From positions 224,051 to 288,050 of the forward strand of contig NC_006397.1 in NCBI RefSeq assembly GCF_000011085.1: a stretch of 64,000 nucleotides of DNA, in the 5' to 3' direction. This DNA comes from Haloarcula marismortui ATCC 43049. GTDB taxonomy: Archaea > Halobacteriota > Halobacteria > Halobacteriales > Haloarculaceae. The notes under the pieces are model-generated. The model had not been told where the DNA came from and searched no databases. It was given only the letters and a program-made list of their open reading frames with translations. Position numbers and translations under genes: made by a program. This document shows positions 48,809-63,972 of this stretch, piece after piece. Each line of letters begins with the position of its first letter. Position 1 is the stretch's first letter.

Positions 48809-49108
48809 CTTATCTTACAAACGGTGGTTCCGTCATTTTTATATAGTCTATATACTACTATGTTCTATATGGAGACAAATATACTGATGGGTAATAGGTG
48901 TTGGCCTTGAGGCTAGCTTGAATATCGCCATGGCCCCTGCGGAGACCGGAAAATCTCCCTCGATTACCGGCTAGTATATAGAGCCTGTCATATACTGAAT
49001 TCTGATACTTATTCTAAATTCTATATGAAGAGAGCCTAAAACTCGATACGAGGTAATTATGGTTTTGTCAGATTTAAACATAAATACTTTTTAACCCAGA
49101 TTTCGCAT
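48809..49108. promoter_or_regulatory. AT-rich divergent control region before phnD
   Basis: This 300-bp region between the DUF4010 gene and phnD holds no gene. It has several TATA-like blocks (tatatagtctatatacta near 48840) and two related copies, gttctatatggaga near 48861 and attctatatgaaga near 49018. The latter may be binding sites for a phosphate regulator. Confidence 0.4.
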
Positions 49109-50278
49109 ATGTCTGCGTCGACAATGAAACAGAACCCAGTTGACCGACGATCTGTGTTAAAAATCGGCGCTACTGCGCTCGCAGCAGGCGTTGCAGGCTG
49201 TTCTCAGGAGAGCAGTCAGAGCACCGAAACATCCGGCGGAGACGGTAGTGACGGGTCCAGTAGCGGTGACGGTGGGTCCGGACAGAGTAACGATTACCCC
49301 GAGTTCGATCCGTCGAATCCGGAGTTCCCGCAGTTGATGCAGACGCTCATCGAGGCCGGGTTCGAGACAGGGTCTCTACAGGACCTGAAGAACATGGAGG
49401 AACGCGAGAAGCCTCGCTACGGTGACCCCGTTCAGAGTACTCCCGATAATGAAGACGAGCTCATTGACCCGGACCGTATTGCGTTTGCGATGACGCCGAC
49501 GGAAGACCCGGCGGTCTATCGAGATACGATGCAGCCGCTGATGGACAACATCGCCGAAGAGACCGGGAAATCCGTTAAATACTTCCCCCTCAACTCGTAC
49601 GCGTCCCAGGTCGAGGCGATGCGGTCCGAACGCCTCCACGTCGCCGGGTTCTCTACTGGGCCGACGCCCTTTGCTGTGAACCTGGCCGGTGCTGTCCCGT
49701 TCTCGCTCCAGATTTCGAAGGCAGGTGACTTCGGCTATCGGCTGTGGCTGGCTACGCAGGCAGATAACGACGATATCTCCTCGCTGGCGGACCTCGAAGG
49801 CAAGCGCGTCGCACACGCCGAGCCCTCGTCCAACTCCGGGAACCTCGCCCCGCGTGCGCTGTTCTCGAACCAGGGCGTCACTCCGGGCGAAGACTACGAG
49901 GTGAGTTATTCCGGCGGCCACGAACAGAGCATTCTGGGCGTTGCAAACGACGACTACGACGCTGCCCCCGTTTGTAGCACCTGTGTCACGCGCGTTGCAG
50001 AAGCAGACAACATCGACCCGACGAACCTCAAAGTCGTGTGGGCCAGCAATCCGTTCCCCACGACGAGTTTCTGTTACCGCTACAACCTGAAGCCGGAACT
50101 TCAGGAGGGTATCAGGGCGGCGTTCATCGACTACGACTACTCGGACACCAAAATCGCGGAGGTGTTCGGTGGTCGCGGAACGTGGACGGAGATTGATTAC
50201 GCTACGACCTACGATATCATCCTCCAGATTCAGGAGAACAACGATATCACGTACCAGATCGACAACATCGAAGGCTAA
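49109..50278 (+). CDS. phnD: Phosphonate/phosphite ABC substrate-binding lipoprotein
   Basis: The 389-residue protein has a Tat signal (DRRSVLKIGATALAAG) and lipobox GVAGC, then a Ser/Gly/Asp-rich linker of about 30 residues. The PhnD-type domain shows DRIAFAMTPTEDPAVYRD, LHVAGFSTGPTPFAVNLAG, KRVAHAEPSSNSGNLAPR and YSGGHEQSILGVANDDYDA. These are typical of phosphonate, phosphite or phosphate-ester binding proteins. It is followed 15 bp later by the ATPase gene. Confidence 0.9.
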   Translation: MSASTMKQNPVDRRSVLKIGATALAAGVAGCSQESSQSTETSGGDGSDGSSSGDGGSGQSNDYPEFDPSNPEFPQLMQTLIEAGFETGSLQDLKNMEEREKPRYGDPVQSTPDNEDELIDPDRIAFAMTPTEDPAVYRDTMQPLMDNIAEETGKSVKYFPLNSYASQVEAMRSERLHVAGFSTGPTPFAVNLAGAVPFSLQISKAGDFGYRLWLATQADNDDISSLADLEGKRVAHAEPSSNSGNLAPRALFSNQGVTPGEDYEVSYSGGHEQSILGVANDDYDAAPVCSTCVTRVAEADNIDPTNLKVVWASNPFPTTSFCYRYNLKPELQEGIRAAFIDYDYSDTKIAEVFGGRGTWTEIDYATTYDIILQIQENNDITYQIDNIEG

Positions 50279-50293
50279 GAAGAGACCCAAATA

Positions 50294-51109
50294 ATGCTCA
50301 CTGTAGATAATTTGGAAAAAACGTACGACTCCGGTGATCGAGCACTCAAAGGTGTCTCATTCGAAGTCAGTGGTAACGAGATCGTTGCGATTATCGGGCC
50401 AAGCGGGGCCGGAAAAAGCACGCTCGTTCGTAGCATCAACAGGCTGACCGAGCCAACTGGCGGGCGCATCTCGCTTGACGATACAGAGGTGACCGGGCTG
50501 GAGAAATCAGCCCTTCGCGATGTCCGTCGCGATATGGGCATGATCTTCCAGGAGTTCAATCTCGTAGAGCGCCTGACGGTCATGGAGAACATCCTCTCCG
50601 GTCGCCTGGGCTATCTCAGTACGTGGAACGCGTTCCGGCGGAACTTCCCTCCGGAGGACATCAGGCGCGCACGCGAGATTCTCAGCCGGGTGAATCTGGA
50701 GGGTGTCGAGAACAACCGTGCAGATGAACTTTCCGGCGGCCAGCGACAGCGCGTTGGTATCGCCCGTGCCGTCATTCAGCGGCCGAAAATCCTGCTCGCT
50801 GACGAGCCGACGAGCGCGCTGGACCCTGACACCTCCCGAGAGGTCATGAGCCTCTTGACGGACATCGCCCACGAAGACGATATCCCGATCATCATCAACA
50901 TCCACGAAGTCGATCTAGCGGTCGACTACGCGGACCGGATAATCGGCCTCAGTGACGGTGAAATCGTCTTTAACGGCCCACCTGACGACCTAGATCAGGC
51001 AGCCAGAGACGAGATCTATCGCGGCGGTGAATCAATTGCGGACCGTGAAGAGCCGAGTGCTGGTAACAGCACTGACGCTGATGACGTCATTGCCGAACGA
51101 GGTGACTAA
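50294..51109 (+). CDS. phnC: Phosphonate-type ABC ATPase
   Basis: The 271-residue ATPase has Walker [19 protein letters not shown]-loop [14 protein letters not shown], signature [15 protein letters not shown], Walker [14 protein letters not shown] and switch [10 protein letters not shown]. The insertion [18 protein letters not shown] after the Q-loop is diagnostic of PhnC. The C-terminus is an acidic tail. It lies between phnD and two phnE genes in one operon. Confidence 0.93.
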
Positions 51110-51114
51110 TCAAT

Positions 51115-51930
51115 ATGGCTGCTGAATCTGGATCGACCGTTGAAGGATCTTGGGAGCGGCCCACAGTCTTCTACAACAAGAAAGTCAAGTATCTCATCTA
51201 CGGGCTTATCTTGTTGTTCTTCGCGTATAGCTTCTGGAACCTTCGGATTTCCCCCAGCCGATTTGTTCGCGGGATCGGAGCCGGTGTCGAACTCATCACG
51301 AGTATGCTACCACCGGCATACACTCCGTCGCAACGGGAACTCCTCATTCAGGGCATCGTCGAGAGCATCGTGATGACGATTGTCGCCACGACAATCGGCA
51401 TCATCGTCAGCGTGCCGGTCGCGATTATGGCTTCGAATAACCTCTCGCCGAAGCCAGTCTACTATGTCGGTCGCAGCATCGTTGCCGTCACGCGCTCGCT
51501 CCACGAGCTCATTGTTGCGATCATCATGGTCAAAGCGGTCGGGTTCGGTCCACTCGCTGGTGTCCTTGCACTTGCGTTCAAAACGATCGGATTCTTCGCG
51601 AAACTCCTCGCAGAGGAGATCGAAGATATCGACCGTGGGCAGATGGAGGCAATAACTGCCGCCGGTGGGACGCCCGTCCAGACGTATCTCTACGGCGTCC
51701 TCCCGCAGGTGATGCCCCGGATCGTCGGGCTGTCGATTTACCGGCTCGACATCAATCTCCGTCACAGCACTGTCGTCGGAATTGTCGGAGCCGGTGGTAT
51801 CGGGATCACGCTGCTGAACTCCTTCGATAAGTACGATTACCAGTTCAGCATGGCGATTATCGCTGTCATCGTCGCGATCGTCATGGTCGGTGAAGGTGTC
51901 AGCGCTCTCGCCCGGAGGCGGATCCAATAA
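51115..51930 (+). CDS. phnE: Phosphonate-type ABC permease (first PhnE)
   Basis: The 271-residue permease has about six helices and the coupling motif MEAITAAGGTPVQTYLYGVLPQVMP. The first helix follows a polar N-terminus of about 25 residues. The membrane-proximal segment TMLPPAYTPS and the end GAGGIGITLLNSFDKYDYQF are typical of PhnE. The ATG at 51115 follows the phnC stop by 5 bp. It overlaps the next permease start by 1 bp. Confidence 0.92.
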   Translation: MAAESGSTVEGSWERPTVFYNKKVKYLIYGLILLFFAYSFWNLRISPSRFVRGIGAGVELITSMLPPAYTPSQRELLIQGIVESIVMTIVATTIGIIVSVPVAIMASNNLSPKPVYYVGRSIVAVTRSLHELIVAIIMVKAVGFGPLAGVLALAFKTIGFFAKLLAEEIEDIDRGQMEAITAAGGTPVQTYLYGVLPQVMPRIVGLSIYRLDINLRHSTVVGIVGAGGIGITLLNSFDKYDYQFSMAIIAVIVAIVMVGEGVSALARRRIQ

Positions 51931-60676: not shown

Positions 60677-60906
60677 TGGCAGATAGAGAGATTGTAACCC
60701 CGAGTCACAAAACTTTTCGATACCAACCAGATACTGATTAGTTAGGTACTGGCCCCGCTCAATCGCTCCCTACTCCACCCCAAACGCATCGACTGGTCCG
60801 GGGCTAGAGCCTGTCGTCGTAGATGACGACCCCAAACGGTGCGTTGCACGCCACTCCCCCCGCCTGCGGCCACTATTATCTTTGCCTGCTTCAAAGTAAA
60901 TTTTGT

Positions 60907-60950
60907 CTGTAATACTCGTCTGTAGTAATTATCTGTGATAGGATTCTGGA
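60907..60950. repeat. CTGTA half-site array with 13-bp period (outlying copy)
   Basis: CTGTA at 60907 and 60920, CTGTG at 60933 and CTGGA at 60946 are spaced exactly 13 bp. TTTTGTCTGTAAT at 60901-60913 is the exact reverse complement of 62154-62166, at the near edge of the main array. It abuts the truncated 3' end of the tnpB relic. Confidence 0.7.
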
Positions 60951-60960
60951 TCAGGTTCTG

Positions 60961-62033
60961 AAACCCACGGTCTCGGCATTTGAACCGCTTCTCCCGCCTG
61001 TTCCCACGCTCCGTGTATAAACACGCGGTGCGAGGACACCGCTGACTCGTGTACTCCGGGTCTACGTCATCCGACGACACACCGTCACGAGCCACCTTGT
61101 ACGTGATCAGATCTCGAAGCTTGGCGAACGGCACCGAGTGCAGGTGGCGGTTCATCCGGGTCCCGTAGTTAATCGAGTCTCGCATGTCTTTGGGGTCTCC
61201 AAAGACGATGACCTGATTCTCGAACTGCGAGACCTACCTAACGACGGTACGTGACATCTTGTGGAGTTGGTCGTGAACAGAGTCTCGTTTCTCCTGTCCC
61301 ACGACCGTCTTGAACGCGGTCTGACCTGCCTCTCGTATCCACCTGCGCTTCGTGAAGCACTCATGCCGTCGACGCTTCACGTCCAGGTATTCGAGAACGA
61401 GCGAGTCCTGTACGTTGCCGCTTTCCCAGTTCATCGCGGCGAGTGCGACGCGGTTCTCGTTGATGTCCACGCCGACCACGTATTGGATTCGCTGGCGTGT
61501 GGACATTGGCGCCTGTGTTGGTGACGGTGATGTGGAACTGTCAGTCACCACGATGTTGGAGGAGTTCCGCGGTACCGACACGCCACGCGGACTTGTTGAG
61601 AGCAGTCGTGAGAAGATTGTGGTGGTCAGGACTGCCCTTCAACTTGCCTTTGGCGTGGTGGTATGGTTTCGCTGAGATGGGGAAGCGGTGCGTGTTATCG
61701 TCGGTTTCGGTGATGCGGTAGCCTTCGCGGTGGTTCATCCGCATTGGATAGGGTTCGTGGATGTAGGGGTTGGGTGCGCCCCAGTCCTCGTCATCGCCCT
61801 CGTCGTAGTTCGTGAGTTCCTGTTGGGCTTTGTCGATTATTTGCTGGCAGGTGTTGTTGACGAGGGCGGCTTTCCCGACCGCGGCGTCTTTGATTTCGCC
61901 CCAACTCTATCCTTGGTAGTGGAGACAGATGATTTCGTTTCGGAGGCGACGGGCTTTGAGGAGGGTGGGTTCAAGCAGCTCCTCGCCCTCTTCAACAGTG
62001 AGTTGGAAGGTGAGGAAAAGGGTCTGCTCCATA
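60961..62033 (-). pseudogene. tnpB: Decayed IS1341-type tnpB
   Basis: From the ATG at 62033 the frame reads MEQTLFLTFQLTVEEGEELL and continues to HYQG, an in-frame TAG, then SWGEIKD. Later pieces in shifted frames give the RuvC-like YVVGVDINENRVALAAMN near 61470 and MNRHLHSVPFAKLRDLITYK. The zinc-finger start SQRCPRTACLYTERG lies near 61020. The reading ends abruptly at RDRGFQ, where the 13-bp array begins, so the last catalytic part is lost. It is an inactive TnpB, an RNA-guided nuclease family of IS200/IS605 elements. No tnpA was seen. Confidence 0.8.
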
Positions 62034-62103
62034 CCCGTTGTGTCGTGTGATTATCTGCTAAAAGCTGCGGCGTGGCTGCTGGGCTTCACCCCCTCCCACG
62101 GTG

Positions 62104-62120
62104 GGGCGAGGCACTCGCCC
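62104..62120. other. Hairpin at the left end of the IS1341-type element
   Basis: GGGCGAG-GCA-CTCGCCC forms a perfect 7-bp stem with a 3-nt loop, about 70 bp upstream of the tnpB start. This is the usual form and place of the subterminal hairpin of IS200/IS605-group elements. The right end of the element was not identified. Confidence 0.6.
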
Positions 62121-62155
62121 TCATTAACTAGTGTAGACGTTTAGCCCAAACCAAT

Positions 62156-62444
62156 TACAGACAAAAAGCTGTAATTGCTGTCTGTAACAAATTGCTGTTC
62201 TGGCATCAATGCGGCTTGCTATCTAAAGTAACTCCAGACGATTATCTGTACCGAACATCTGTTCCATACAGCCGTTACAGGCGCTTAGTATGGACATCTA
62301 TTACAGATAATTGCTACAGATAAATGTTCCAGATCAGGCGCAATCCGATCTCTGTCTTGCGGTAGAGGTGCAATTACAGATAATAGATACAGACAACTGG
62401 TACAGGCAGCAGTCACGAATGTCTGACACAGATATATCTAACAG
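62156..62444. repeat. 13-bp-phased TACAG/CTGTA array upstream of parA
   Basis: TACAG or its complement recurs at exact 13-bp steps. Group A is at 62156 (TACAG), 62169, 62182 and 62195 (CTGTA, CTGTA, CTGTT). Group B is at 62233, 62246 and 62259. Group C is at 62276, 62302, 62315 and 62328, and group D at 62375, 62388, 62401, 62427 and 62440. The last unit is exactly 13 bp before the parA ATG at 62453. Spacers are 8 bp and not conserved beyond a loose ATAAT. Orientation switches between groups. This looks like a centromere or iteron set for a DNA-binding protein. Confidence 0.8.
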
Positions 62445-62452
62445 AAGTTCAA

Positions 62453-63457
62453 ATGAGGAAGCGTATGATAACGACCGTCGTCTACGCTGAGTCTGGGGGG
62501 ACATACAAAACGACCATGACAGCAAATCTCGCGGTTGGGTTCAAACGGATGGGACTTGATGTCCTCGTGATCGATTTGGACCCACAAACGGGCAACCTCA
62601 CCTCACTCTTCGACGTCGGTAAGAATCGTGGAGACCCGGAAGCTGACAATCTCGTAAAGCACATTCTTGAAATGCCAGACGGGGACTTCGACAACCTCAT
62701 CGAGACCTCTGAAGAGGGTGTTGATATTATTCCAAGTCACGATATGCTGGGCGATTTCACTTCCAATCTTGAGCAGAAGATTTCCTACGAAACGGGCATG
62801 AAGGGAATTTCTCGAGACGAGTATCCCCGCTTTGAACTTCTCTACAATCTTCTCTGGGAGCAAGAGCAGTTGAACGAAGAATACGACGCGGTCCTCATCG
62901 ACCCTAACGCACGCGCTGAAGACCTGCTCTACAATGCCATCTACGCGCTTCGGACATTAGTGGCACCTGTCAAGCCAGCTGGAAAGGGAAGTCTCAGTCT
63001 TGATGGTCTCGAAGAGATGGTCGGGAACATGGGGACTGCGTTGGACATCGAAATCGGGCTTTCGTGCGTGGTTCCATCCGGAGTCGGCCAGACAAACGCC
63101 CACAGGCAGTATCGCGATCAGTTCGAAAATACGGACGCCTTCGCAACGCCAGTGTCGATCGGGTCACGCGAGAGTTTGATGGACGCCATGTGGGAAGCCC
63201 GTGGCTCTGCGTTCAAAGTAGTAGAGGAGCGGTGGAAGACCTACGAAGAGGACGAGGAGATGGTCTCAAAAAAGGGAGAGCGGCGAGTGCCCGACCGTGA
63301 ACTCGAGACTCTGGATAAACTTTGGCAACTGGCGGGGTTCATTGCGACTGAGACGTTCGATGTCGACGTTGATGACAAACTGGTCTTAGATATCGACGAC
63401 TATGGAACCGAGACGATGCAGTTTGACCTCACCGCTAAGCCGGAGGTGGCTGACTAA
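62453..63457 (+). CDS. parA: ParA/Soj-family partition ATPase with atypical Walker A
   Basis: The 334-residue protein opens MITTVVYAESGGTYKTTMTA (ATG 62453, or ATG 62465 four codons later). The Walker A segment ESGGTYKTT keeps the P-loop Lys19, but the signature lysine of the deviant motif KGGxxKT is Ser14 here. The rest is ParA-like: VLVIDLDPQTGNLTSLFDVG, DAVLIDPNARAEDLLYNA, and VVPSGVGQTN. The C-terminal part carries a charged segment (about 255-285). The gene starts in phase with the 13-bp array and overlaps the partner gene by 1 bp. It most likely segregates a replicon. Confidence 0.88.
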   Translation: MRKRMITTVVYAESGGTYKTTMTANLAVGFKRMGLDVLVIDLDPQTGNLTSLFDVGKNRGDPEADNLVKHILEMPDGDFDNLIETSEEGVDIIPSHDMLGDFTSNLEQKISYETGMKGISRDEYPRFELLYNLLWEQEQLNEEYDAVLIDPNARAEDLLYNAIYALRTLVAPVKPAGKGSLSLDGLEEMVGNMGTALDIEIGLSCVVPSGVGQTNAHRQYRDQFENTDAFATPVSIGSRESLMDAMWEARGSAFKVVEERWKTYEEDEEMVSKKGERRVPDRELETLDKLWQLAGFIATETFDVDVDDKLVLDIDDYGTETMQFDLTAKPEVAD

Positions 63458-63972
63458 TGGGGGGCGATTCATTCAAATCAGGATCAGGTAACCTCAGCTT
63501 CGGAGATGATCAGGAAGAAGCAGACGACGAGCCAGCGGAAGCCGGTGAGGAAATCGATGACATCGCAGACGAGGAGGCGGACGATCGGGAACCCAAGGAA
63601 GCCACCCCTGAGGAGGTAGATGACAGCCGGGACTTCTCTGAAGCGAAGGGGGCCAATAGTCCCAACGAAGAGAGTACGACGAGCACTCCCACGGCCAACG
63701 ATGCCGAACCACACCAAACGAGTGCTCACCAGTATCCGTACTTCGTCCGTCGGAGTAACGTCGGGGACGAACGAGACAACCGTCTCGAACTCTTCGCTCG
63801 CGATAAAGTCGTTTCGCGAGAAGCGGAGTTTCGGAGCCAGCTTGCTTCGGAACTCGGAACGGACGACATTGCGAAGACGGACGCCCGTGAGTATGCGCTT
63901 CTTGCAGCGTTCGACAACGTAGAGGCCGTTGCAGAGCTCATGAGAGGAGACGGATACGGAGAACTCGATTAA
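63457..63972 (+). CDS. Acidic ParB-like partner protein of ParA
   Basis: The 171-residue protein has a long disordered acidic N-terminus (about 1-90, rich in Glu, Asp and Ser). A compact C-terminal domain (about 92-171) begins YPYFVRRSNVGDERDNRLEL, continues with a basic helix around ARDKVVSREAEFRSQLASEL and ends in an acidic helix. It has no classical ParB HTH. Position, overlap with parA and size suggest a centromere-binding adaptor, possibly binding the TACAG array. The family is not named with certainty. Confidence 0.7.
   Translation: MGGDSFKSGSGNLSFGDDQEEADDEPAEAGEEIDDIADEEADDREPKEATPEEVDDSRDFSEAKGANSPNEESTTSTPTANDAEPHQTSAHQYPYFVRRSNVGDERDNRLELFARDKVVSREAEFRSQLASELGTDDIAKTDAREYALLAAFDNVEAVAELMRGDGYGELD

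Follow-up and report, generated by a model that had tools for sequence, protein, structure and literature searches.

Directly upstream of a parA gene in Haloarcula marismortui ATCC 43049 lies a dense series of TACAG/CTGTA repeats set at a regular 13-bp step, which raises the question of what these repeats are for and what reads them. The locus lies in the stretch of DNA analysed here (the window; 64,000 bp, bases 224051-288050 of a 288,050-bp replicon, NC_006397.1). We consider it likely, at roughly three chances in four, that the array is the centromere and operator (parS) of the partner protein encoded immediately after parA, a predicted ribbon-helix-helix protein that would coat the array and thereby enable ParA to segregate the replicon. 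This had been one of two functions offered by the original prediction, which was made from the letters of the window, and it is now the best-supported reading through the conserved linkage of the partner gene, the predicted fold of its product, and covariation between repeat word and partner residues. The original statement that no haloarchaeal centromere of such form had been described also held, in that no report of a haloarchaeal parS or 13-bp array was found among titles and abstract openings of the open-licence PMC literature.

Close ParA loci (69-100% identity) were gathered from three sources. Removal of exact duplicates left 59, and dropping the near-duplicate L044 left 58 including the window; further close matches were left out because of short upstream regions (G323, G196, G143, and G046) or as second copies (G363 and G367). 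A search for the phased motif upstream of close parA homologues, proposed originally as a check, found the array at all 58 non-redundant loci. Within 450 bp upstream the unit matrix detects 544 units (median 9 per locus, range 2-15), and 376 of the 486 steps between neighbours are multiples of 13. The 500-bp upstream regions contain 262 TACAG and 258 CTGTA half-sites (520 together; shuffle mean 88). Same-strand pairs at 13, 26, 39, and 52 bp number 175, 96, 57, and 47, against about 0.1-0.2 each in shuffles, while convergent (TACAG-to-CTGTA) spacings peak at 9, 22, 35, and 48 with a minority at 13 and 26 (8 and 8), and divergent (CTGTA-to-TACAG) spacings peak at 17, 30, 43, and 56.

As judged from these spacings, the repeat unit is one 13-bp palindrome, ATCTGT-W-ACAGAT, in head-to-tail tandem, and the profile centred on TACAG reads TTACAGAYATCTGTTACAGA. 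The 8-bp spacers, first described as unconserved, read AYATCTGT family-wide; they are conserved because the unit is a palindrome, the "spacer" being its other half-site. Orientation does not flip between groups as had been thought, since the pair spacings are those of one palindromic unit and 17-bp breaks had been mistaken for 13-bp flips. An unphased TACAG direct-repeat model was rejected because the spacers are conserved and most pairs on opposite strands are spaced by 9+13n or 4+13n. The alternative dyad ACAGAYATCTGT is disfavoured as the binding unit: among 60 isolated runs of two half-sites, 21 are ATCTGT-W-ACAGAT and 1 is the alternative, the remainder being 36 direct runs and 2 of other kinds. 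At right array ends ATCTGT-W-ACAGAT is preferred to the alternative by 93 to 43, and at left ends by only 74 to 62. The 110 off-lattice neighbour steps are most often of the form 13n+4 (for example 17 bp, as from 62156 to 62173), by a small lead of 15 over the next at 12 and 11, and the convergent pairs at 13 and 26 show the same shift.

In the window, the main array occupies 62150-62446 (no strand assigned) and comprises 14 units of at least 3 bits, centred at 62156; 62173 and 62186; 62250, 62263, 62276, 62302, 62315, and 62328; and 62375, 62388, 62401, 62414, and 62427, with a weak extra half-site at 62440. Counted as half-sites between 62156 and 62444, there are 11 exact and 12 one-mismatch copies, which bears out the original count of about sixteen TACAG-like half-sites on 13-bp steps in four groups. 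The second and third of those groups form a single lattice (62250 to 62328). The units are spread over several lattices separated by breaks, 17-bp breaks occurring between 62156 and 62173 and between a weak half-site at 62233 and the unit at 62250. Using a scoring matrix trained on 49 other loci, with the window and its nearest clade excluded, we found 13 positions that reach 5 bits, together with 18 lattice pairs; in 2000 first-order Markov shuffles the means were 1.02 and 0.01, and no shuffle reached the observed values. The array is the sole dense cluster on the replicon, with up to 10 sites of at least 6.5 bits per 250 bp; elsewhere there are at most 3 per 250 bp, and two such windows correspond to an outlying piece of the array at 60905-60956 (described below). 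A genome-wide search for exact TACAG-N8-TACAG gave 9 matches, 5 of them within the array and its outlying piece, and a reversed control pattern gave 7, so this exact pattern alone proves little.

More distant ParA loci preserve the spacing with other words. We read 38 such loci (37-52% identity), a hand-picked and non-exhaustive set, and dropped the near-duplicates L111 and L114 to leave 36. The 38 upstream regions contain only 43 TACAG/CTGTA in total, and their words include TATCTWAGATA, CAGT-N3-ACTG, GTTASTAAC, and others. By autocorrelation, the top spacing is 13, 26, or 39 in 58/58 close and 33/36 distant upstream regions (the exceptions being L095, L107, and L119). The corresponding controls for the close set were 0/58 in coding DNA, 6/55 further upstream, and 105/1160 in shuffles, and for the distant set 2/36, 3/36, and 54/720. 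With predictions set beforehand, 19 of 20 held-out distant loci showed the 13-bp lattice (L160 failed). On this comparison of upstream sequences, the 13-bp lattice is constant between ParA subfamilies while the word changes. Of the 391 class genomes sampled, 243 contain ParA relatives at this level, so the system would be widespread; no viral relatives were confirmed in viral_contigs. The same genome carries a second ParA-partner pair (C7:174261-175462, L107; ParA about 40%), which has a single TACAG/CTGTA in the 500 bp upstream and a weak lattice with top spacing 36 and then 13, TATA being among its top lattice words. The other ParA-like genes of the genome (L002-L010) gave mixed results when scanned for 13-bp periodicity. 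One of them, L006, is on the same replicon (49023-49604), near orc/cdc6 at 50307-51452, with 39-bp periodicity downstream.

The proposed centromere-binding protein is encoded at 63457-63972 on the + strand (171 aa), overlapping the parA stop codon (TAATG). An open reading frame (ORF) directly follows ParA in 93 of 96 loci, with an overlap of 1 or 4 bases in 91 of those 93. At the remaining three, which were left out of the partner analyses, a partner was detected by tblastn in L035 and L036 (both with broken ParA) and was not found in L104. Among the held-out loci the partner gene lies downstream of parA in 20/20. The N-terminal motif FKSGSGN (63472-63492, +) is proposed as a peptide that contacts ParA and activates its ATPase; across 93 aligned sequences K7 is conserved in at least 90% and G9 is invariant, and the held-out partners have K-[SKED]-G in 18/20 and K-x-G in 20/20. 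The C-terminal domain (63727-63969, +) is predicted to be a ribbon-helix-helix, its model having a predicted local distance difference test score (pLDDT) of 94.9 and best structural matches to 3ft7, PutA, CopG, and KacTA; the predicted DNA-contact strand is RLELFAR (63781-63801, +). SegB and ParG are absent from these structural matches, which is no evidence of difference. At an E-value of 0.001, Pfam gave no partner family for the window protein or among the 25 of 47 families listed for the 93 members, and NCBIfam gave nothing above cut-off for the window partner and two others. Two partner profiles searched against PDB sequences at E-values up to 10 retrieved merely unrelated weak matches (best 0.43), the SegB sequence itself being outside that comparison. 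In many RefSeq plasmids (also L144-L148) the partner is annotated as an "acyl-CoA dehydrogenase," apparently a propagated misannotation.

The residues predicted to face outward on the partner's strand are 109, 111, 113, and 115. Among 91 loci these fall into classes REHR (44), REFR (12), TQHQ (11), VQFR (9), and small ones, and class corresponds to word: TQHQ with TATCTWAGATA, VQFR with CAGT-N3-ACTG, and REHR/REFR with TCTGTWACAGA. Across 35 distant loci, word similarity is associated with the four outward residues after ParA identity is controlled for (partial r 0.418, p 0.002), and these residues exceed 296 of 300 random four-residue sets. When ParA and all other partner segments are included, the outward residues keep 0.356, whereas the other segments keep 0.15-0.24. 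In the held-out TQHQ class, the exact predicted 4-mers were among the top three in 6/9 loci, and any piece of TATCTTAGATA was present in 9/9, a criterion chosen afterwards.

The parA gene itself is placed at 62465-63457 on the + strand (330 aa; Pfam AAA_31 and CbiA), in an ORF that opens at 62453 (334 aa). Its product is 100% identical to the ParA of Haloarcula sinaiiensis plasmid pHsi540, the best public match, and the RefSeq H. sinaiiensis gene starts at the 62465 equivalent. Comparison of the close loci indicates that the start is probably 62465 and not 62453: at the position matching 62465, 57 of the 58 loci have an ATG, and a start codon occurs at the 62453 equivalent in 10 of 58. The array had been described as running in register into the ATG at 62453; because this codon is upstream of the predicted start, the register would be accidental. 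In the predicted parA promoter, TCTGACACAGATATAT (62422-62437, +), a TATA-like box is merged with the final good unit of the array. The element differs from TCTGACACAGATTTAT at no more than 2 positions in 56 of 58 loci, and a genome-wide scan allowing 1 mismatch gave a single occurrence of CTGACACAGATWTAT. In 54 of 58 loci the distance from the TATA centre to the 62465-equivalent start is 28-30 bp (30 bp in the window), from which a leaderless parA mRNA is predicted. The TCTGAC preceding the TATA box was considered as part of the word and set aside, since GTCTGA also occurs in distant loci with other words. In 18 of the 36 it lies no more than 62 bp ahead of the start, and it is thus probably a promoter element; before the TATA-like box of distant loci (L087-L126), it is possibly one resembling the B recognition element (BRE). 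Pfam AAA_31 begins at residue 9 of the 334-aa ORF, as in a Walker-type ParA without an N-terminal DNA-binding extension. The Walker A of the window ParA is ESGGTYKTT, without the signature lysine, and that of the family is E[SA]GGxxK[TS][TS] instead of KGGxxKT, the position of the lysine being occupied by Ser in 59 of 91 proteins and by Ala in the other 32.

If the array is a centromere, one partner dimer would occupy each 13-bp unit, with adjacent dimers stacked along the DNA, and the N-terminal K-S-G peptide would contact ParA and drive its ATPase cycle. Binding of partner to the unit nearest the promoter may also block TBP/TFB, which would make the leaderless parA-partner mRNA autoregulated. 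Alternatively, the array might serve solely as an operator through which the partner represses the promoter and autoregulates the parA-partner operon, with segregation proceeding through another site or through none. The overlap of the last good unit with the TATA-like box and the position of the array directly before parA speak for such an operator, but a median of 9 units within 450 bp exceeds what repression needs, parA and the conserved partner N-terminal peptide are both present, and the replicon has no second dense array; we regard this alternative as unlikely. The original prediction had also allowed for an iteron set serving a replication protein. Tandem repeats at fixed spacing do look like iterons, and two orc/cdc6 genes above cut-off lie on the replicon, the nearest being about 8.5 kb from the array round the circle. 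However, the loci were found through parA and the array sits beside it, the consensus does not have the G-string reported for haloarchaeal origin recognition boxes (PMC3528665), and the annotation of seven plasmid neighbourhoods shows no initiator (from incomplete PLSDB gene tables, one with just 0.5 kb upstream), which together make an iteron set very improbable.

Two other readers of the array were weighed in place of the partner, and we give either of them hardly any credence. A host-encoded ribbon-helix-helix regulator such as CdrS might bind, given that its deletion is reported to lower megaplasmid sojA mRNA in Halobacterium (PMC7439475), although sojA may not be this ParA. If a conserved host regulator were the reader, a single word would be expected throughout, whereas the word differs between ParA subfamilies, and the near absence of TACAG/CTGTA upstream of the second ParA-partner pair in the same genome also counts against it. 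ParA itself might be the specific DNA reader, as word similarity tracks ParA identity (r 0.93 over the 91 loci; partial r 0.40 given partner segments). Yet no association with ParA is left in the 35 distant loci once all four partner segments are included (-0.031, p 0.75), and ParA has no room for an N-terminal helix-turn-helix, because its ATPase domain begins at residue 9. Some results do limit the case for the partner as reader and for a type Ib system. When the full set of 91 loci is used, the partial r kept by the outward residues is 0.208, less than that of ParA (0.40) and of the pre-strand segment (0.30), so shared descent may underlie the covariation. Additionally, the signature lysine is present in 0/91 ParA proteins and the deviant Walker A of type Ib (KGGxxK[ST]) was not found, so the family was likened to type Ib in working and was not filed as a canonical member.

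With these points taken into account, sequence and structural models are best read as describing a type-Ib/SegAB-like partition system. In SegAB of the Sulfolobales, too, the gene of a ParA-type ATPase overlaps the next one, which encodes a small DNA-binding protein with a ribbon-helix-helix (a fold that is predicted here). The sites of SegAB are reported to lie upstream of the ATPase gene (PMC12284271, PMC5120986), and its reported 13-bp odd palindrome, TCTAGASTCTAGA for SegB, is similar in length and symmetry. SegB sites are dispersed across the chromosome (39 chromatin immunoprecipitation peaks and 46 sites reported; PMC12284271, PMC5120986), whereas the haloarchaeal units are packed head to tail. 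Further differences are that the haloarchaeal words vary between subfamilies and that the partner profile had no relevant PDB sequence match. The repeats of bacterial type Ib systems are heptads or short boxes, unlike the 13-bp palindromic lattice, and the haloarchaeal system also differs in its ParA without the signature lysine and its predicted archaeal promoter. Reported for ParF-ParG of TP228 and delta-omega of pSM19035, and matched here by observed or predicted features, are a short ParA, a small partner encoded downstream that combines a ribbon-helix-helix with a flexible N-terminal tail, and repeats upstream of the operon acting as operator or centromere (PMC9178275). AspA-ParBA of Sulfolobus pNOB8 resembles the proposed system in being an archaeal plasmid partition system in which a protein coats DNA from a palindrome, but it is reported to have three genes (aspA-parB-parA), a winged-helix AspA, and a single 23-bp palindrome (PMC5120986). 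The haloarchaeal order is parA first and then one partner gene, not a three-gene operon. McdA-type ATPases position carboxysomes, whereas the haloarchaeal ParA is accompanied by a predicted DNA-binding partner and an array. What the two share is a Walker A in which Ser replaces the signature lysine, reported as SGGQGKT for McdA (PMC9178275).

The array is not confined to 62156 onward, as originally described. Beyond an insertion element, the outlying piece (60905-60956, no strand assigned) has four more units at 60905, 60918, 60931, and 60944, at exact 13-bp steps and scoring 5.8-10.1 bits. Between the pieces is a decayed TnpB-type insertion element (60959-62137, - strand, approximate ends), which matches a gene annotated as a transposase at 68% identity in two pieces; a Cas12f1-like_TNB domain persists in the ORF at 60742-61185. 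In the relative L038, one of eight close relatives compared, the two aligned array blocks are 20 bp apart. From the transposase match and these near-contiguous flanks, we infer that insertion of the TnpB-type element split an array that had originally been longer.

Since subfamilies differ in word but share the lattice, the centromere of each replicon type would carry an address of its own. A broader proposal, which we regard as evenly poised, is that haloarchaea use a centromere barcode in which one family of ParA and ribbon-helix-helix partner acts on a fixed 13-bp lattice of abutting palindromes, with an interchangeable word of 4-6 bp per replicon type that is read by about four strand residues and sets plasmid compatibility. 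A precedent for word-specific incompatibility is reported for clostridial ParR plasmids (PMC9426499). The finding bears on the segregation of the many megaplasmids and mini-chromosomes of haloarchaea, for which it offers a defined candidate for the centromere, a likely reader of that site, and a correspondence between residues and word, and it would mark a ParA family that functions without the signature lysine. If the proposal is true, the interchangeable word of each replicon type would set plasmid compatibility, and replicons would be sorted by centromere barcode.
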